DNA from: Aldrovandia affinis
Lineage: Eukaryota > Chordata > Actinopteri > Notacanthiformes > Halosauridae
NCBI GenBank assembly: GCA_029706075.1
Contig: JAINUG010000327.1
Location: 639,001 to 703,000, forward strand
Length of the DNA stretch: 64,000 nt
Direction: 5' to 3'
In this document: piece by piece, positions 1,293-62,003 of the stretch
Position numbering within the stretch: the stretch's first letter is position 1
How the letters are laid out: the number at the start of each line of letters is the position of its first letter
Notes under the pieces: model-generated
Database searches by the model: none
What the model saw: only the letters and a program-made list of their open reading frames with translations
What the model was told of the DNA's origin: nothing
Made by a program: the position numbers and the translations under genes

Positions 1293-20400
<19,108 letters not shown>

Positions 20401-23308: not shown

Positions 23309-47419
<24,111 letters not shown>

Positions 47420-51200: not shown

Positions 51201-52887
51201 TAAATTAAAAACCTAATCCACACCTAATCTATGGACAACTAGCCCATTACAAGCAGTTTGAACCCAGGCCCAATTTTAACAACAAAGGATTAACGGCTCT
51301 TGAGTCGTGCAAAGAATCCCACCCTAAATCGTGTGTGGACAATGTAGAGCTACGTCTGTGATTGGACAGGAATCACCCTCAGTGAAACACTCCCCTTTGA
51401 GATGATAAACGATGCAACTCTGTTCTTAGCCTTTCCTCCTCATGTAAAAGCTCCTGTTAATGATTGAGATCACACATGAAGGCCAACGTCATCCTCTGTG
51501 GTTCTGTGTGGCTCAGTAGGTAGAGCGTTGAGCTGACAGCACTTAGGTTGTGGGTTAATTTCCCATTGGGGACCACATACACTGAAAAACATATGCATTC
51601 ATTACTGAGTCGCTTTCAATAAAAGTGTTTGCTAAGCGGCATGTTATGTCTCCATCTCTGTGTTTAAAATCTAGAGTGGATTACAAATAATCTTGTGCCC
51701 AGCTCATCACCCAAATGAGAGCTATCAGTAACGTTTCAATTTGTCCTTGTAATAGTAGTCTAGTAGTGCAACGACAGTATTATTTTTATGACAACGCCAG
51801 TTGTTTATTTGTCCATCTACTTTGTGAATATTGGCTATGAACATGCATACTGTTGGTATAGCATGGCGTTGGCAACACTTAGGTTGTGGGTTCAATTCCC
51901 AATGGAGTCACATATACTGAAAAAAATGTATTCATTCACTACTGTAAGTCGCTTTGGATAAAAGCGTCTGCTAAATGGCATATATTATTCTCTGTGGTAT
52001 TGCTGCACTTATCCGCTCGTATTCTGGATGGTGACAAGTGGTTTGGATACAAGAGGCTGCAAAGTGTCAAAAGTGTAACGAGAGACAATGAGGAACGTTT
52101 GTGGGAGAAAGTAGGGAACCAGGGAGAAGCTTGAAACTCATTCTCACTGCTATCACTCAAACTCATGTGACTCAAGGTGAATTACTTTTATACAAACCTG
52201 AACTAGAACTGCCTTTTACCTTTTTCATACAATATCGTTTAATGAAGTTGTGTGACCTGTGTGTGCCCTGATACTAGATATTCTTACTGCCGTTTATATG
52301 CCTGCTTCATGTTGTACATAATTGGGCCTGTCTGCATATCCATTTTTTCAATTTGGGATGACTGACCGATAGTGGACATTGCACATAGTGGAATTTCAGG
52401 TGTTGGAAACAAAGGTACACCGTCGGAATTAAATGAATACGTGAAATTGTCCAGACTTTTTTATTTTAATATCACCTGAAAATATTTAAAATCAGCAAGG
52501 AAAACATACATTTCACTAAAACGTAAATAGCCATTTAAAACAGTTGAGATGAGAAACTCATCGGTTTGTTTGACTACATTTTGTTATCAGTGAGCAAGCC
52601 AGGTAACCAAACAAATTTCAATCCGATTTTGGAATTGCAAATGTGTTGTCTTTTATACTTGTGCTCACGTTTTCGTTCCTCGTTGAATATTGATCAACAT
52701 GGCCCCCTTTGATCGCCAGTTGAGTGGTCACTTAATTACCAGCCATTGTGTCGGGGGATTTACCTGGGCGTGCTCCGAGTGGCGTTCACTAACACACCGC
52801 CCTGTTGTCTTTCCAGAATCTCACCACAACGCTTCTACGAACAGGGGCTTTTCCAGGAAGCACGATGGCGGTTTCTACTCCACCTAA
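48281..52887 (+). CDS. cfap276: Cilia- and flagella-associated protein 276 (C1orf194 orthologue)
   Basis: Small protein bound inside doublet microtubules of motile cilia. Exons: 48281-48358, 48532-48648, 49014-49129, 50514-50632, 52817-52887, with phases 0,0,2,0 across the introns and all AG/GT. They total 501 nt, 166 residues, close to the 169 of the human protein. It starts [13 protein letters not shown]. Exon 2 carries [19 protein letters not shown] and exon 3 [14 protein letters not shown]. Exon 4 has SIHSIEGTI and exon 5 ends [15 protein letters not shown], the hallmark C-terminus. The head-to-head position with elapor1 agrees with the human locus. Introns 3 and 4 carry SINEs, a LINE remnant and MITEs. 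An X-box-like site upstream suggests RFX control. Confidence 0.93.
49158..49375 (-). mobile_element. SINE family 1 copy (minus orientation)
   Basis: Left tail gatgctcttatccagagtga, middle catttacacagctggatatt, right reversed head near ccattatactacactgata. It lies 28 bp after cfap276 exon 3. Confidence 0.82.
49564..49877. mobile_element. MITE with terminal inverted repeats
   Basis: Starts ctacacgctcagaaaaaaag and ends tttatttttgagtgtag, the inverse of its start. Internal ggtacaat/attgtacc words are mirrored. It is in cfap276 intron 3. Confidence 0.75.
50005..50430 (-). mobile_element. LINE 3' fragment (minus orientation)
   Basis: The minus strand near 50180-50310 reads [20 protein letters not shown], then [14 protein letters not shown], the same ORF2 C-terminus as at 4267. 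The shared tail is at about 50020-50052 (cttatccaaagtgacttaca). It is in cfap276 intron 3. Confidence 0.7.
50944..51086. mobile_element. hAT-type MITE with perfect 8-bp target duplication
   Basis: 143 bp. The ends are cagtggttctcaaacctctc and its inverse, gagaggtttgagaaccactg. It is flanked by ctctagag at 50936-50943 and 51087-51094. It is in cfap276 intron 4. Confidence 0.93.
51497..51650 (+). mobile_element. SINE family 2 copy
   Basis: gtgtggctcagtaggtagag head, gtgggttaatttcccattgg B-box region, ctttcaataaaagtgtttgc tail. It is in cfap276 intron 4. Confidence 0.82.
51866..51990 (+). mobile_element. SINE family 2 copy, head truncated
   Basis: Starts near gttggcaacacttaggttgt, keeps gggttcaattcccaatgg and ends gataaaagcgtctgctaaat plus a TAT-rich end. 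It is 5' truncated. Confidence 0.82.
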
Positions 52888-52956
52888 CGTCTTCGCAATT
52901 CTGTGGCAAACCCCAGCATCAATGTGTGTGCCGCGTCCCATCTTAGTAAAAATAAT

Positions 52957-52962
52957 AATAAA
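52957..52962 (+). terminator. cfap276: Polyadenylation signal of cfap276
   Basis: AATAAA 70 bp after the cfap276 stop codon on the same strand. Confidence 0.7.
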
Positions 52963-53404
52963 AGACATTGCTGTACGAGCACCGTTATGTTGGTATGTTT
53001 ATTCAAAGTTGAACTTAACATTTGGCACATCCATACTTTAAAACTGGGACACAAACTCGACGAGCCTGTTCACAATGTTTCCGGATTAAAAGATGGCCAA
53101 CATGCATTAAACATTTATCAAGAAACCTCGCTAACGAAATCATGCATGCCTTAGTTAGAGCCCATCTGTGCAATGTGCCAAAATCAGTAGAAGACATGTG
53201 GATTCGCTAGTAAGGCAATCGTGTTAAGTTGTAAACATTGTACCATAGACAAATTAATTCGCATTACTTACAAACGTTTCCCGAAAATGCCAGGAAGACT
53301 ATGCAACAAGCTAGCCAACATGTTGTTAGCAGCGAACGTTAAATTACACGCCGATACTTGGCGCCCTTTGCATGCTCGCGTCCATGGAGCCAAAGTACGA
53401 ACTC

Positions 53405-53660
53405 GTGGCCAGATCAGAATCGCCTCTATACTCATCGACCGGAACAGACACAGAAGTAAACCCCTGGTCCTACCGGCACTAGTATATCTGATCAATTCAT
53501 CATTTCTGTACCACAAGATCTTGTGGCGGCCTTAAAGAAGTGAAATGCCTCATGCTCATCGCCGATTCGGCTCGCATGTCGGATCATATCATTTCAGAAT
53601 CGGAGCAAGGCTAGACTCCAACCTGATCAAATAAGATCACTGTGTAGTTTTTTTTGTCTT
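53405..53660 (-). ncRNA. scarna2: Candidate scaRNA2 (U2 G25/C61 guide, C/D type)
   Basis: A small Cajal body RNA guiding 2'-O-methylation of U2 snRNA. The minus strand 53514 to 53405 forms a C/D module: stem GTGG-CAGA paired with TCTG-CCAC, box C ATGATGA (53497-53503), D' ACTA, C' CGATGAG (53431-53437), box D CTGA (53414-53417). Its guide AUCAGAUAU is complementary to U2 57-65 and puts C61 exactly five bases before D'. Upstream, UGAUCUUA (53632-53639) is complementary to U2 22-29 and puts G25 five bases before a TTGA D'-like box. Position and strand between tmem167b and cfap276 agree with human SCARNA2 as I recall it. Limits: no canonical box C is seen for the 5' module, the 5' end is not determined, and the human RNA is longer (about 420 nt). 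Confidence 0.72.
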
Positions 53661-53795
53661 CCCTAACCATTCGTTCACATAAAAAAACAACGATCACACG
53701 CTCTTTCACTCACTCACCCGAACACTCGTCCACATTCTCGCAACACACACTCAGCATCTGCCGCTGTAGCACAGGCGCAGTGAATTTATGCTGTT

Positions 53796-53820
53796 TCGCA
53801 GAGCATCATGGGAGTACAAT
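53796..53820 (-). promoter_or_regulatory. ZNF143/Staf-like site upstream of candidate scaRNA2
   Basis: The minus strand has TACTCCCATGATGCTCTGCG, close to the ZNF143 consensus core (ACTACAATTCCCAKSATGC type, with a trailing TGCG). It lies about 150 bp upstream of the first guide element. ZNF143 activates many snRNA-type genes. Confidence 0.55.
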
Positions 53821-54702
53821 AACTAACCAATTATATGATTGCCCCCTCTTGTGGGTATAAATGAAAGTACAGGCGCAGATAGGAATTTACAAGTAATCTC
53901 ATAATACTTGTTAAATCTATTTGTTTTTGTAAATATAACACTAAGCATTCAATTAAATTCAATCTATTCAGAACCTTCTCGTGTGCACACGTTCTATTAA
54001 CCAATTTGAATAGATAACATTGGACATTGTTAATAATACGGCATTCATACTTTCGATTTCACTGAAGAGACTGTATTAGGTATTGTTACGTAGTAAAGCG
54101 TTTGGGATTTTCATATTAAGAACCGATAATACAATTATTACCCCCACGTTTTCCTGTTTCTTTGTTGTAACAGGCACAAAAAGGGAAATAATACCGCGAA
54201 TAGCAGAGGATTTAACTCCTTCCGAAAACATACCCGTTTACTTATTCTTGATTTTGTGCATTAAAAAAAGAGCAACAATGGGTTGTTTCGTAATCAAATT
54301 AGAACTAATCGTATTAGAGCCTGCAAATACACGGAACTGGTCTATTGATGGTTAGATCCAGACAGTGTTGCCAGATGCTCGTGGTTTTTAATTCCACAAA
54401 ATGTCAGCATCAATTGACTCTCGTGTAATTGTAGGCCTATTTCCCCATATGTACTTAAAATCCACCTATATATAGTACCACCGACTCCCATACATATTTA
54501 CACTGAAGCGTATATGAATTATTCACTAATCCTCTAGTCTGGCAATCCTGAATATGATAATGAAGACTCAATCACACGTTGCCGAGCAGGTCTGGCACCT
54601 TTTGTGCATATCTTCTGTAAAACGTTTCACAGAGAGCGTGTGAAACGAACACGAAGCAGGTCTGCTATTTAAACTGTTTAAATTGAACCAACAAACATTT
54701 TG

Positions 54703-54908
54703 CATTTACATTTTAGGCATTTAGCAGACGCGCTTATCCAGAGGGACTTACACAGTCTACATTTTCTTTACATACAATCCATTTATACAGTTGGATATTT
54801 TTTACTGAAGCAATTCAGGCTAAGTACCTTGCTCAGCAGTGCCCCACCTGGGAATTGAACCTGCAACTTCTGAGTTACAAGCCCAGCTCCCTAACCGTAA
54901 CACAGTAC
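54703..54908 (-). mobile_element. SINE family 1 copy (minus orientation)
   Basis: Left tail ttttaggcatttagcagacg, right reversed head with gaattgaacctgcaactt and ccctaaccgtaacacagtac. Confidence 0.85.
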
Positions 54909-55520
54909 ACTCTCTGTATTGTTCATAGGCCTACATGTTTGAAATTTTAAAAATAAAATAATGAGCGCATATTCAGTAAAGAAACAACAGATCCATTGTC
55001 TCAACGTCAGTAAAAGTCGTCCAGAAGTCACCAACTACGTCTTCTGCACCCAAATAGTTTGTTGAGCTCAGATCGTTCGTCAGTGGAAGCCCACCTTAAC
55101 CATTGCTTTAATAAACTATTTAATTTCGTTATTGCAGCTGAACATGCATTCATTAACAGATTATGGAATTTTCTACAGCTAGGGATTAGTATTTGGTTGT
55201 GCATTGTGATATTTGCAGCTTGTATTCAGCACTTCTACATAAGCCAGTGCACTGAAAGTCTCCAAGCGTAAGGACACGAGCCAAATGAACAGCAATAAAT
55301 GCAAGAGTGGGATAAAAAAATCATCATAAATTCGGACCGTGTCCGGCATTTCTCTGCTCTGCAATATTAAAACGGCGCTAATGAAAGACGCGACTTGTTC
55401 CAAGGCTAGCCCAAAATTGACACGAGTGCCTCCAACCACACATGCAGTTGTGAACGGATAACTAAACGTTCTAACTAACGAAGAACTTCAAAAAAATAAT
55501 CGACACTGTTGGATTCTGAG

Positions 55521-57784: not shown

Positions 57785-60403
57785 TCACTTTATGAAGAGC
57801 ACGTAAAACGCCATGGAGAGGCAGGACAGCGCCACAGCCAGGTGAAGTCTGGTCCCAATCACAGCACCTTTGAAGAAAAAACAGGGTAGTGGGTAGTGTA
57901 GCCTTTCATCAGAAGAGTGGACTTGTACAGTAGATCTTATTCTAGTGAAACTTAAAAGTGCAAAATTAATGTCTTGGCCTCCAGGCAGAAACCTTTAAGT
58001 AAACCTTTGAGGAGGCTCAAACATGCAGTGAACATTAAAGCAACCAGCAAAGGGTTTGCAGTGGGTCAATAACCTGTGATTTTCAAAACCGGTATAGTTA
58101 GGTGCTCAAGTTAACAGCATGCCAGCACCTGGTTTCTGGACAGTGACCTGCATGGTCAAATTATATCATCACCCGAGTCAGTATTTGGCCAAACAAGCTG
58201 CTGGTCTTAATCCACAATATAAAAACAAAATGGCGGCAGTCACAATGGCAACCATATATTTTATTTTTTTACCTTTATAGAAGACACCCCAGAGGCCCTT
58301 CTTCTCTGACAGTAGCCAGCTCTTTAGCCGGGGGACCTTCTTCAGGTACGCACAGGTGCAAATGAAGAGAAGGCCGAACACCACGATTCCATCGAAAGAA
58401 TACACTGGCGAAAGGAAACAACATCCATTCAAAACGTGCTCACAGCAGTATTAATGCAGAGAGGCGTTTGTACATTCATCCACTGCAACAACTGTAGTAC
58501 ACCATCCACTATTTCACCAAAACACTACTAGCATTGACGATAATAGGCAGGTACATCTTTTTGTGGGACTATGCGAGCTGGGAAGGGCAGCAACATCCTA
58601 CATATTACATTTTTACATTTACATTTTAAGCATTTAGCAGACGCTCTTATCCAGAGCGACTTACAAGATGTGCATTAATACATGGTAGGAACAATCAGTT
58701 TGCGCACGAGATCAGTGCAGTAATATAGCGACAGACATCGTTGTAGGCAGCTGCATACCATACGTGTAACACTGGGAAGGAAAAGGTTAGTATTTTTTAA
58801 AAATTATTATTAAATGAGTAGGGAGGGATAGATATACAGGAAGTGGTGATGACAATTGGGTAGATGTAGAGGATTCAGTGGTAGTGGAGTCTGAAAATGT
58901 GGGTTTTGAGTCTCTTGCGGAAGATCGCAAGTGATTCCGCGGTCCTGACCGATCGTGGAAGGTCGTTCCACCACCGAGGGGTCAGGACAGAGAAGAGGCG
59001 AGACCGCGAGGAGAGGCTGCCGGGCGCCTGGAGTAGCGAGACTACTCAACCGAGACACTAATTTCGCACCCTGCTTGATTTTTGACACAGATCTATGAGG
59101 GAATGGAACAACAGTGCGCATCGTTTGTGAGATTTAAAATACGCACGTTTATTTGGCAGCACATTTAACATTACGTCTTTCAACTGTGCCATAATTATTT
59201 GTCATTCAATTATTTGTCATATGGGCGACAGAGTAGTGTAATGGTTAGGGAACTGGACTTGTAACGCAAAGGTTGCTGGTTCAATTCCCAAGTGGAACAC
59301 TGCCGTTGTACCCTTGAGCAAGGTACTTAACCTGAATTGCTTCAGTCAAAATATCCAGCTGTATAAATGGATTGTATGTAAAGAAATGTCAACTGTGTAA
59401 ATTGCTCTGGATAAGACCGTCTGCTAAATGCCTAAAATGTACATGTAAAAATGTCATTCAATTAAAAAAAAAAAACTTTGCATTGACGAAAGGGAAAATA
59501 ATTCAAAGCTCTGCCCTGTTCTGTGTTTATAGACCAGAAAAAGTCAATACTGTAAATGTGACAGGTATCTAAATAAACACTTGGTAAATTGTGTGCCTTA
59601 CAGGTAGCCTGCTTAGAAAGCTAGGTGTGTGTGTTGCGGTTGTGACAGCGCTTTGATTCCTGCGTTTTTACAATTAATATATTAGACTTTGCCTGTCTAA
59701 TACTGCGTAAGTATTACAGAATCTAGCCATCTGTCCAGCTTATAATGCGCATAGTGCTAGCTATGAGTAATTTCAGAACAGACCCCTATTATTAGAATAT
59801 ATGAAAGACTAACGTTAGCCATCAAGCTACGCGGTCTTTAAACTGAAATGATTTCTTAAAGCTAAACCATTTAGACCAGAAATGAGTGAGGTATCGAGCT
59901 AGCTCGTTAGATGGTTATCTAGTTAACGTTATGTTTACATATTGACAAGATAGTCAGCTAACGTTATCTACATGCAAGTAACTCAACCAACTATTGATGC
60001 TGGCTAGCAGGCTATGTATCTTATCCGACTGTGTACCTCTAACATTAGCTAGCTAGCATCTATTTCACGAACGTTAACATTTGAGAGGTAAGCTTGCTTT
60101 GCCAAAAAAATCTAAGATACAAAACTGTTGTTTACTAGTCCTACGTTATTTATATTTATATTAAACGGACTCTTTCAAACTGAGTGGGCGATGTCTTCAC
60201 GGCCTGGTGCGTCTAGCTAGCTCCCCAGATAGCTAATATGGAGCCACGTCCTCAAAATCTCCAATTTAGCGCTAGCTTGCTAGCTACTTCCTGCTTTACA
60301 TGTTGTAGTAGATAGTAAGCAAGCTAACTTAGCTACCTAACAAAGATATTAACTATTATCCCCAAAGTTCTGGAATACAGCTTCAATACATACCGTTTGT
60401 CAT
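57785..60403 (-). CDS. tmem167b: Kish-B (transmembrane protein 167B)
   Basis: Small two-pass protein of the Golgi secretory pathway (Kish family). Exons on the minus strand: 60394-60403 (10 nt), 58273-58404 (132), 57785-57867 (83). They total 225 nt, 74 residues, the family's exact length. The first exon codes only MTN plus one base. Exon 2 reads [20 protein letters not shown], with the first membrane span, then [16 protein letters not shown]. Exon 3 has [20 protein letters not shown], the second span, and ends FIK. The minute first exon makes the start hard to find by open frames, but donor GTATGT and the in-phase join are clear. Next to cfap276 as in human. LINE and SINE copies sit in intron 1. 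Confidence 0.96.
58608..59150 (-). mobile_element. LINE 3' fragment (minus orientation)
   Basis: The minus strand near 58870-59010 reads [20 protein letters not shown], then [15 protein letters not shown], the same ORF2 end as at 4267 and 50005. The shared tail gcagacgctcttatccagag is at 58636-58655. It is in tmem167b intron 1. Confidence 0.72.
59223..59452 (+). mobile_element. SINE family 1 copy
   Basis: Starts gggcgacagagtagtgtaat, with ggttagggaactggacttgt, B box ggttcaattccca and tail gataagaccgtctgctaaat. It is in tmem167b intron 1. Confidence 0.87.
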
Positions 60404-60919
60404 AATCACAGGCGGTTTAAAAAAACCTCTACCAAATTGCAGTGTGTTCAGCAATCCCGATTTATCTACCTCTTCATTTTACGCCTGCTACCTTGACAGC
60501 AAACACGCAGGACTGAGTAGTCAAATACCGGCTATGACAGGGGCAAGGTACATGCGCCCATTCCCTGTCAGGGAAGACGAATCGATTCCAGATAAGGATG
60601 AAACAGCGCACTTGGACACACTACTAAACTGACGAAAATTTACAATTATCCAGCTGTGGAATTAAATGTGTTGCTGAATGAAGCTGCAAGGAAATGAGAT
60701 ACTGTTTAGTATGCAATAAAAAAATACTTTAATCTGGGTCGGGTCTGTTGTAACATTAAACCAGGGGTGGGCTATTCCTGTCCTGGAGGGATGGTGTGTA
60801 TGCAGGTTTTTGTTTCCAGCAGTTCCTGTGGCTCAGTTAGCTAATTAATTAGCTCTATATACCAACGTTGCTTCACTCCTTGATAATTCCACAGTAAAAT
60901 GTTTGATATAGGCCTAGGG

Positions 60920-61875
60920 CAGGGGTGGGCAATTCTGGCCCTGGAGGGCCAGTGTGTATGCAGGCTTTTGTTTCTACCAATTAACCTGGCTTACAAACAT
61001 GAAACCAGCCAAGAAGTGTTTAGTCACATTAGATGACCAGAAAATGGCCAATGATTTAAATTATTTTTATTTGAGATTTGATACTAATGATTTTACTGCA
61101 GAGTGTATTAAAGAGCTGGACTCCTTACCCCCAATTGAGTATGTTGATAGACCGCAGATCGATCCAAAACAGGTCCAGTACTTCTTTGAACATGTTTCCT
61201 CAAAAAAGGCTATGGGGCCTGATGGGATTTCACCATTTATTTTAAAGACTTGTGCAGAAGAGCTAACACTGGCCTGGTGCCCTATCTTTCAACAGTCCTT
61301 AGATATTCAAAAGGTTCCTGCTCTCTGGAAAAGCTCTGTAATTACTCCTGTCCCCAAGAAAGCCCATCCAACTGAGAACAATGATTTTAGACCAGTTGCT
61401 CTCACATCAGTTGTAATGAAATGCCTTGAGAAGTGTGTGGTGTCTATGTTGAAATCGGATGTGAGCAGCAGATTAGATCCATTACAGTTTGCTTACAGGC
61501 AGGGACGATGCACATCGACGATGCTATCACTGCCATCACACACTTGGTTTTAAAGCATCTTGAGGACAATGGAGCTTATTCTCGGCTACTTTTTATTGAT
61601 TTTAGTTCTGCATTTAACACGCTTCAATAAAGTACATATCTATCTATCTATCTAACTAATTAGCTGTATGCATTAATGTCAGTTCACTCTCAGATTAGAT
61701 TACAGTAAACATTTCATACAGGGACGCAAGAACAGTCTTCAGCTGTCATTCACAAGCTTAACAGAAAACTTAGCTAAAATGTCAGACCATGTAAATGATT
61801 GGGCTAATTAAATAATTAAGAACAAAAGTGGGCATGAAACCCAGAAACAGATGCGGCCCTCTTTGCCCAACCATG
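60920..61875. mobile_element. hAT-type non-autonomous element containing a LINE fragment
   Basis: The left end caggggtgggcaattctggc and right end (tgcccaaccatg) are flanked by the 8-bp duplication gcctaggg at 60912-60919 and 61876-61883. The interior carries a LINE reverse-transcriptase piece at about 60995-61660. Total 956 bp. Confidence 0.75.
60995..61660 (+). pseudogene. LINE reverse transcriptase remnant
   Basis: The plus strand encodes KKAMGPDGISPFILK, then PVPKKAHPTENNDFRPVALT and [12 protein letters not shown], the fingers and palm start of non-LTR retrotransposon reverse transcriptase (L2/CR1-like). A frameshift near 61495-61505 separates it from [15 protein letters not shown] (motif A). 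It then jumps to an AATAAAGTACATATC tail with (TATC)n, so the catalytic YADD region and everything after it are deleted. Confidence 0.85.
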
Positions 61876-61939
61876 GCCTAGGGACACCAGAACAGTCTTC
61901 AGCTGGCATTCATTATCTTACCAATAAATGTAGCTATCT

Positions 61940-62003
61940 TGCACATCTTGTAAGTTGCTCTGGATAAGAGCGTCTGCTAAATGCTTAAAATGTAAAAAAA
62001 AAA
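61940..62003 (+). mobile_element. SINE tail fragment with poly-A
   Basis: Only gtaagttgctctggataaga, gcgtctgctaaatgc and a run of A remain, the shared SINE/LINE tail without a head. Confidence 0.7.

Follow-up and report, generated by a model that had tools for sequence, protein, structure and literature searches.

Vertebrates possess a scaRNA, SCARNA2 or mgU2-25/61 (Rfam family RF01268), that guides the modification of U2 at two nucleotides, G25 and C61. Several papers describe how this RNA is made and what it does. SCARNA2 is among the few independently transcribed scaRNAs (PMC3349704). According to a review, its human promoter is ZNF143-dependent and is contained in the 161 bp next to the start; the review also prints two ZNF143 binding motifs (PMC7154149). 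When human scaRNA2 is knocked down, single analyses show U2 25Gm falling from about 98% to 65-66% and 61Cm falling from 65.6% to 45.3% (PMC6412121). The same source reports that TDP-43 binds GU-rich scaRNAs and that lowering TDP-43 cuts both U2 25Gm and 61Cm. GU richness has been reported for vertebrate mgU2-25/61, and TGAG-type motifs have been suggested as a possible help in Cajal body targeting (PMC4041459). U2 is also acted upon by two other GU-rich box C/D scaRNAs, SCARNA9 (mgU2-19/30) and SCARNA28 (mgU2-47) (PMC6412121), but their targets are sites other than G25 and C61. Is there a third target of scaRNA2? G11 of U2 has been proposed (PMC7960923, PMC6023535) and has been argued against (PMC6412121).

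Fish are among the organisms listed with scaRNA2 in PMC8866460, and zebrafish scarna2 is named as acting on U2 in PMC6023535. Here we describe a locus on the minus strand of a 64-kb stretch of the Aldrovandia affinis genome (the window, to which all coordinates refer). The covariance-model search that a first-pass annotation of this DNA had proposed matches RF01268 to positions 53786-53409 with 74.6 bits (E 7.7e-16), against a gathering score of 48 bits. The alignment takes in the full length of the model, positions 1-420; the 3' two thirds align well and the 5' third weakly. In the displayed conserved blocks, 23/26, 27/30 and 27/34 positions are identical to the consensus. The score is the same, 74.6 bits, when a 1.3-kb stretch is searched alone and when the whole assembly is searched. 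The other Rfam families seen in the 1.3-kb stretch fall far below their own thresholds, and no other scaRNA family rises above threshold at the locus; SCARNA7, for example, reaches only 9.9 bits at 53861-53970, against a gathering score of 65.

We conclude, with very little doubt, that 53409-53786 of the minus strand is the fish orthologue of scaRNA2 and an ordinary member of a known vertebrate family. The orthology claimed by the first-pass annotation is thus borne out by the family model. Three of its other statements do not survive. It had called the gene hard to find by ordinary similarity, yet a default Rfam search reports the locus above threshold, and the gene is an expected one, a matter of routine annotation. 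The novelty that it implied for a fish scaRNA2 is at odds with the passages in PMC8866460 and PMC6023535 that already place scaRNA2 in fish, including zebrafish. Finally, the interval that it gave, 53405-53660, is too short on the 5' side: the model match begins at 53786 and takes in a GU-rich domain.

The two guides are exact complements of U2. TGATCTTA, at 53639-53632 of the minus strand, pairs with U2 22-29; it has no second copy on that strand and a single one, at 25140, on the plus strand. ATCAGATAT, at 53492-53484 of the minus strand, pairs with U2 57-65; it too occurs once on each strand, the plus-strand copy lying at 44984. The nucleotide opposite G25 is 53635, the fifth upstream of a D'-like box, TTGA (53627-53630), and the nucleotide opposite C61 is 53488, the fifth upstream of the D'-like box ACTA (53480-53483). 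The coordinates therefore confirm what the first-pass annotation had read from the letters: two antisense stretches on one strand, each with its target partner five bases from a D'-like box. Guides, spacing, box C, box D and closing stem are shared with SCARNA2, as is the GU-rich 5' domain. The fish RNA differs from the RF01268 consensus in its C61 guide, which pairs over 9 nt, one more than the consensus (which has G where the fish has U); in a longer internal hairpin of the second module, 30 nt against 8 in the elided part of the model; and in a 5' domain that is less G+C-rich.

The second module also has the remaining parts ascribed to it earlier. Box C (ATGATGA, 53497-53503) aligns with the RF01268 consensus, box D (CTGA) lies at 53414-53417, and CGATGAGT at 53430-53437 is a putative C'-like box by its alignment to the same consensus. 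The arms of the closing stem, 53513-53505 and 53413-53406, form 8 pairs around one bulged A as read from the sequence. When the module is folded alone, this stem grows to 12 pairs (-44.2 kcal/mol, z -2.46; 1/200 shuffles as good). The minimum-energy fold of the full-length RNA (z -1.98; 4/100 shuffles as good) lacks the closing stem, and in it the C61 guide is paired instead to the region around box D; all folds were computed without proteins, so this loss is not decisive. In the first module, whose fold is unremarkable (z -1.17), AAATGATATGATC at 53582-53594 is a probable C'-like element, aligned to GAAAUGA of the consensus. We looked by eye for pairing with the proposed third target and rejected it: the stretch before box D, AGAGGCGATT, pairs only in scattered fashion around G11. 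No tandem repeats were found at 52500-55000.

Upstream of the G25 guide lies the GU-rich 5' domain, 53676-53755 on the minus strand, with 31 GT or TG dinucleotides in 80 nt. This count is reached by 0.5% of 80-nt segments of that strand, some of which are simple repeats. TGAG occurs six times in the 378 nt of the matched locus, a number equalled by 0.4% of segments. The fold of the GU-rich domain is unremarkable (z -1.71). The mature 5' end of the RNA probably falls between about 53790 and 53740.

Does the fish gene carry a promoter like that of human SCARNA2? Just upstream of the locus, at 53823-53797 on the minus strand, we predict a probable ZNF143/Staf site that agrees with SBS1, as printed in PMC7154149, at 21 of 27 positions. 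The site had been spotted by eye before it was scored against SBS1; the next best score in the window is 17, and the best in 150 simulations is 19. A looser 18-nt ZNF143 consensus has 7 matches in the window where 3.61 are expected, and the promoter site is an unremarkable match among them, with two mismatches. Since this consensus fails to single out the site, it is SBS1 from PMC7154149 that by itself carries the ZNF143 claim. For SBS2, the site is absent from the six best listed matches in the window. With this reservation, the fish gene may, like SCARNA2, be an independent gene that depends on ZNF143. The best SBS2-like match in the window, 20/27 at 32066-32092 of the minus strand, lies beside a UnaL2 element between elapor1-type exons and may be due to chance or be repeat-borne. 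A TATA-like CATAAATT is found at 53790-53783. CTCF-like (53854) and CCAAT-like (53831) stretches upstream were set aside, being no better than others elsewhere in the window.

The surroundings of the locus are those of the human gene. On the plus strand, an exon at 48.5 kb matches the solved CFAP276 structure (E 2.5e-10), and another cfap276 exon lies at 52.7-52.9 kb (E 6.3e-7). At 58.2-58.4 kb the minus strand carries a DUF1242 exon of the kind seen in tmem167 proteins; we take this gene to be tmem167b, not tmem167a. Judged by the exons found, scarna2 is intergenic, and its position and strand between a tmem167b-like gene and cfap276, on which the first-pass annotation had leaned, hold. Farther away, at 29356-35095 of the minus strand, are exons for ELAPOR1-type domains (29.4-35.1 kb). 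The human order is TMEM167B, SCARNA2, CFAP276, ELAPOR1, and the fish neighbours (tmem167b-like, cfap276 and elapor1-like) are the same.

We searched the whole assembly (1,222,302,279 bases in 2,576 contigs) for other copies and for the targets themselves. RF01268 reports one match in these 1.22 Gb, the present locus, with 16 of 235,395 first-look candidates scored, so a weak second copy may have escaped the search. At the DNA level, the 426-nt stretch 53405-53830 finds only itself. A convincing scaRNA2 elsewhere in the genome, which the first-pass annotation had named as grounds for giving up its claim, is thus reported by neither search. Viral contigs scanned with a conserved 19-mer gave no match, as expected. 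The U2 model (RF00004) has 46 matches in the assembly. Within the 12 best loci we located 17 U2 5' ends by their first 21 nt, and 16 have both target sites exact; of the other 34 of the 46 matches, the check covers those that lie inside the 12 loci. With two duplicate rows removed (L012 and L013 overlap), 14 of 15 distinct U2 5' ends match both guides exactly. The one that does not belongs to a truncated copy in L008, starting at position 2176, in which the U2 sequence is kept as far as nucleotide 31 or so and is lost beyond it. The top U2 matches fall into two score groups, with five scoring 194.2 bits and eleven scoring 187.8; after the C61 site the former reads ACGTCCCC and several of the latter read ATGTCCCC.

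How strong was the case before the family model was applied? Of 150 sequences simulated from a first-order Markov model of the window, one contained both guide 8-mers in the right order on one strand and less than 300 nt apart; this count asks for neither a ninth base nor the D' spacing nor any box. The guide evidence on which the first-pass annotation relied is good, yet not conclusive, and it is RF01268 that settles the identity. That such a pair can arise at this rate is what might be said for a chance resemblance or a low-complexity artefact. With the whole model matching at E 7.7e-16, and with conserved blocks outside the guides, this explanation is untenable; we regard it as refuted and give it next to no credence. 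We think it just as improbable that a different two-guide box C/D RNA arrived independently at the same U2 sites. The guides by themselves are short; the similarity, however, extends beyond them to the boxes, the stems and a CUACAC motif, over the full length of a single family model, and the gene neighbours are also strongly against an independent origin. We reject it on the RF01268 match.

A third alternative, very unlikely though slightly less so than the other two, is that the locus is a decayed copy of scaRNA2 and that the working gene lies elsewhere. The weak alignment of the 5' third and the irregular predicted fold of the full-length RNA would suit a pseudogene. Nevertheless, neither guide is damaged, the boxes keep their sequence and spacing, the locus has cfap276 and a tmem167b-like gene for neighbours, a probable ZNF143 site lies upstream, and no other copy is reported in the assembly. 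The intact guides and boxes, together with the lack of a second reported copy, lead us to reject this reading. The family gains a fish member whose guides are exact, whose U2 targets are present in its own genome and which has a probable ZNF143 site. It supports long conservation both of methylation guidance at U2 G25 and C61 and of the gene's place beside cfap276 and tmem167b.

Because the guides and their spacing are exact, the same U2-guiding function is most likely in this fish. Published human work suggests how transcription, localisation and methylation might proceed. RNA polymerase II, aided by ZNF143, would produce a capped transcript, whose GU-rich 5' domain would favour its retention in Cajal bodies through GU-binding proteins such as TDP-43. 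The box C/D core proteins, fibrillarin among them, would assemble on the two C/D modules. UGAUCUUA would then pair with U2 22-29 and place G25 for 2'-O-methylation, and AUCAGAUAU would pair with U2 57-65 and place C61. As in human, a fragment may also arise from the second module.

One further feature may bear on how the guide engages U2. Just upstream of the G25 guide, at 53642-53648 of the minus strand, ACUACAC could pair with U2 31-37; its last six nucleotides, CUACAC, are common to the fish RNA and the Rfam consensus and complement U2 31-36. Together with the guide it would form 7 + 8 = 15 bp over U2 22-37, with a small internal loop between the two parts. The computed duplex energy is -17.4 kcal/mol, whereas the guide by itself gives -8.1. 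When the 21 nucleotides upstream are shuffled, the native energy is reached in 3 of 2000 cases for the fish and in 32 of 2000 for the Rfam consensus, in a test made after the pairing had been noticed and with a U2 target region chosen around the guide. The consensus has the same arrangement, with 5 plus 10 pairs, so an accessory pairing would apply across the family rather than to this fish alone. We put forward tentatively, and consider rather less than an even prospect, that CUACAC is a second, accessory antisense element and that the two-part duplex clamps U2 open during methylation of G25. If so, the accessory duplex would cover part of the branch-point recognition sequence of U2. An earlier description of the U2 31-37 pairing may exist in the literature. 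The proposal is a small and directly testable addition to the way in which the guide engages U2.

Several other elements were observed in the window. Nine UnaL2 LINE 3' elements score above the gathering score in the 64 kb, on both strands: 13183-13236, 14923-14976, 25559-25612, 30745-30798, 32638-32691, 40581-40634, 51931-51984, 58624-58676 and 61936-61990. The second of these directly follows, on the same strand, a tRNA match at 14835-14902 (43.5 bits), and the whole, 14835-14976 of the plus strand, has the look of a SINE derived from a tRNA and ending in a UnaL2-type tail. A reverse-transcriptase-like fragment at 60918-61550 of the plus strand (RVT_1, 23.8 bits where the cut-off is 29.6) is probably a LINE remnant. 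An exon resembling p38 MAP kinase lies at 10140-10601 of the minus strand, where residues 14-60 of the reading frame have their best match in 3oht (E 7.7e-21).
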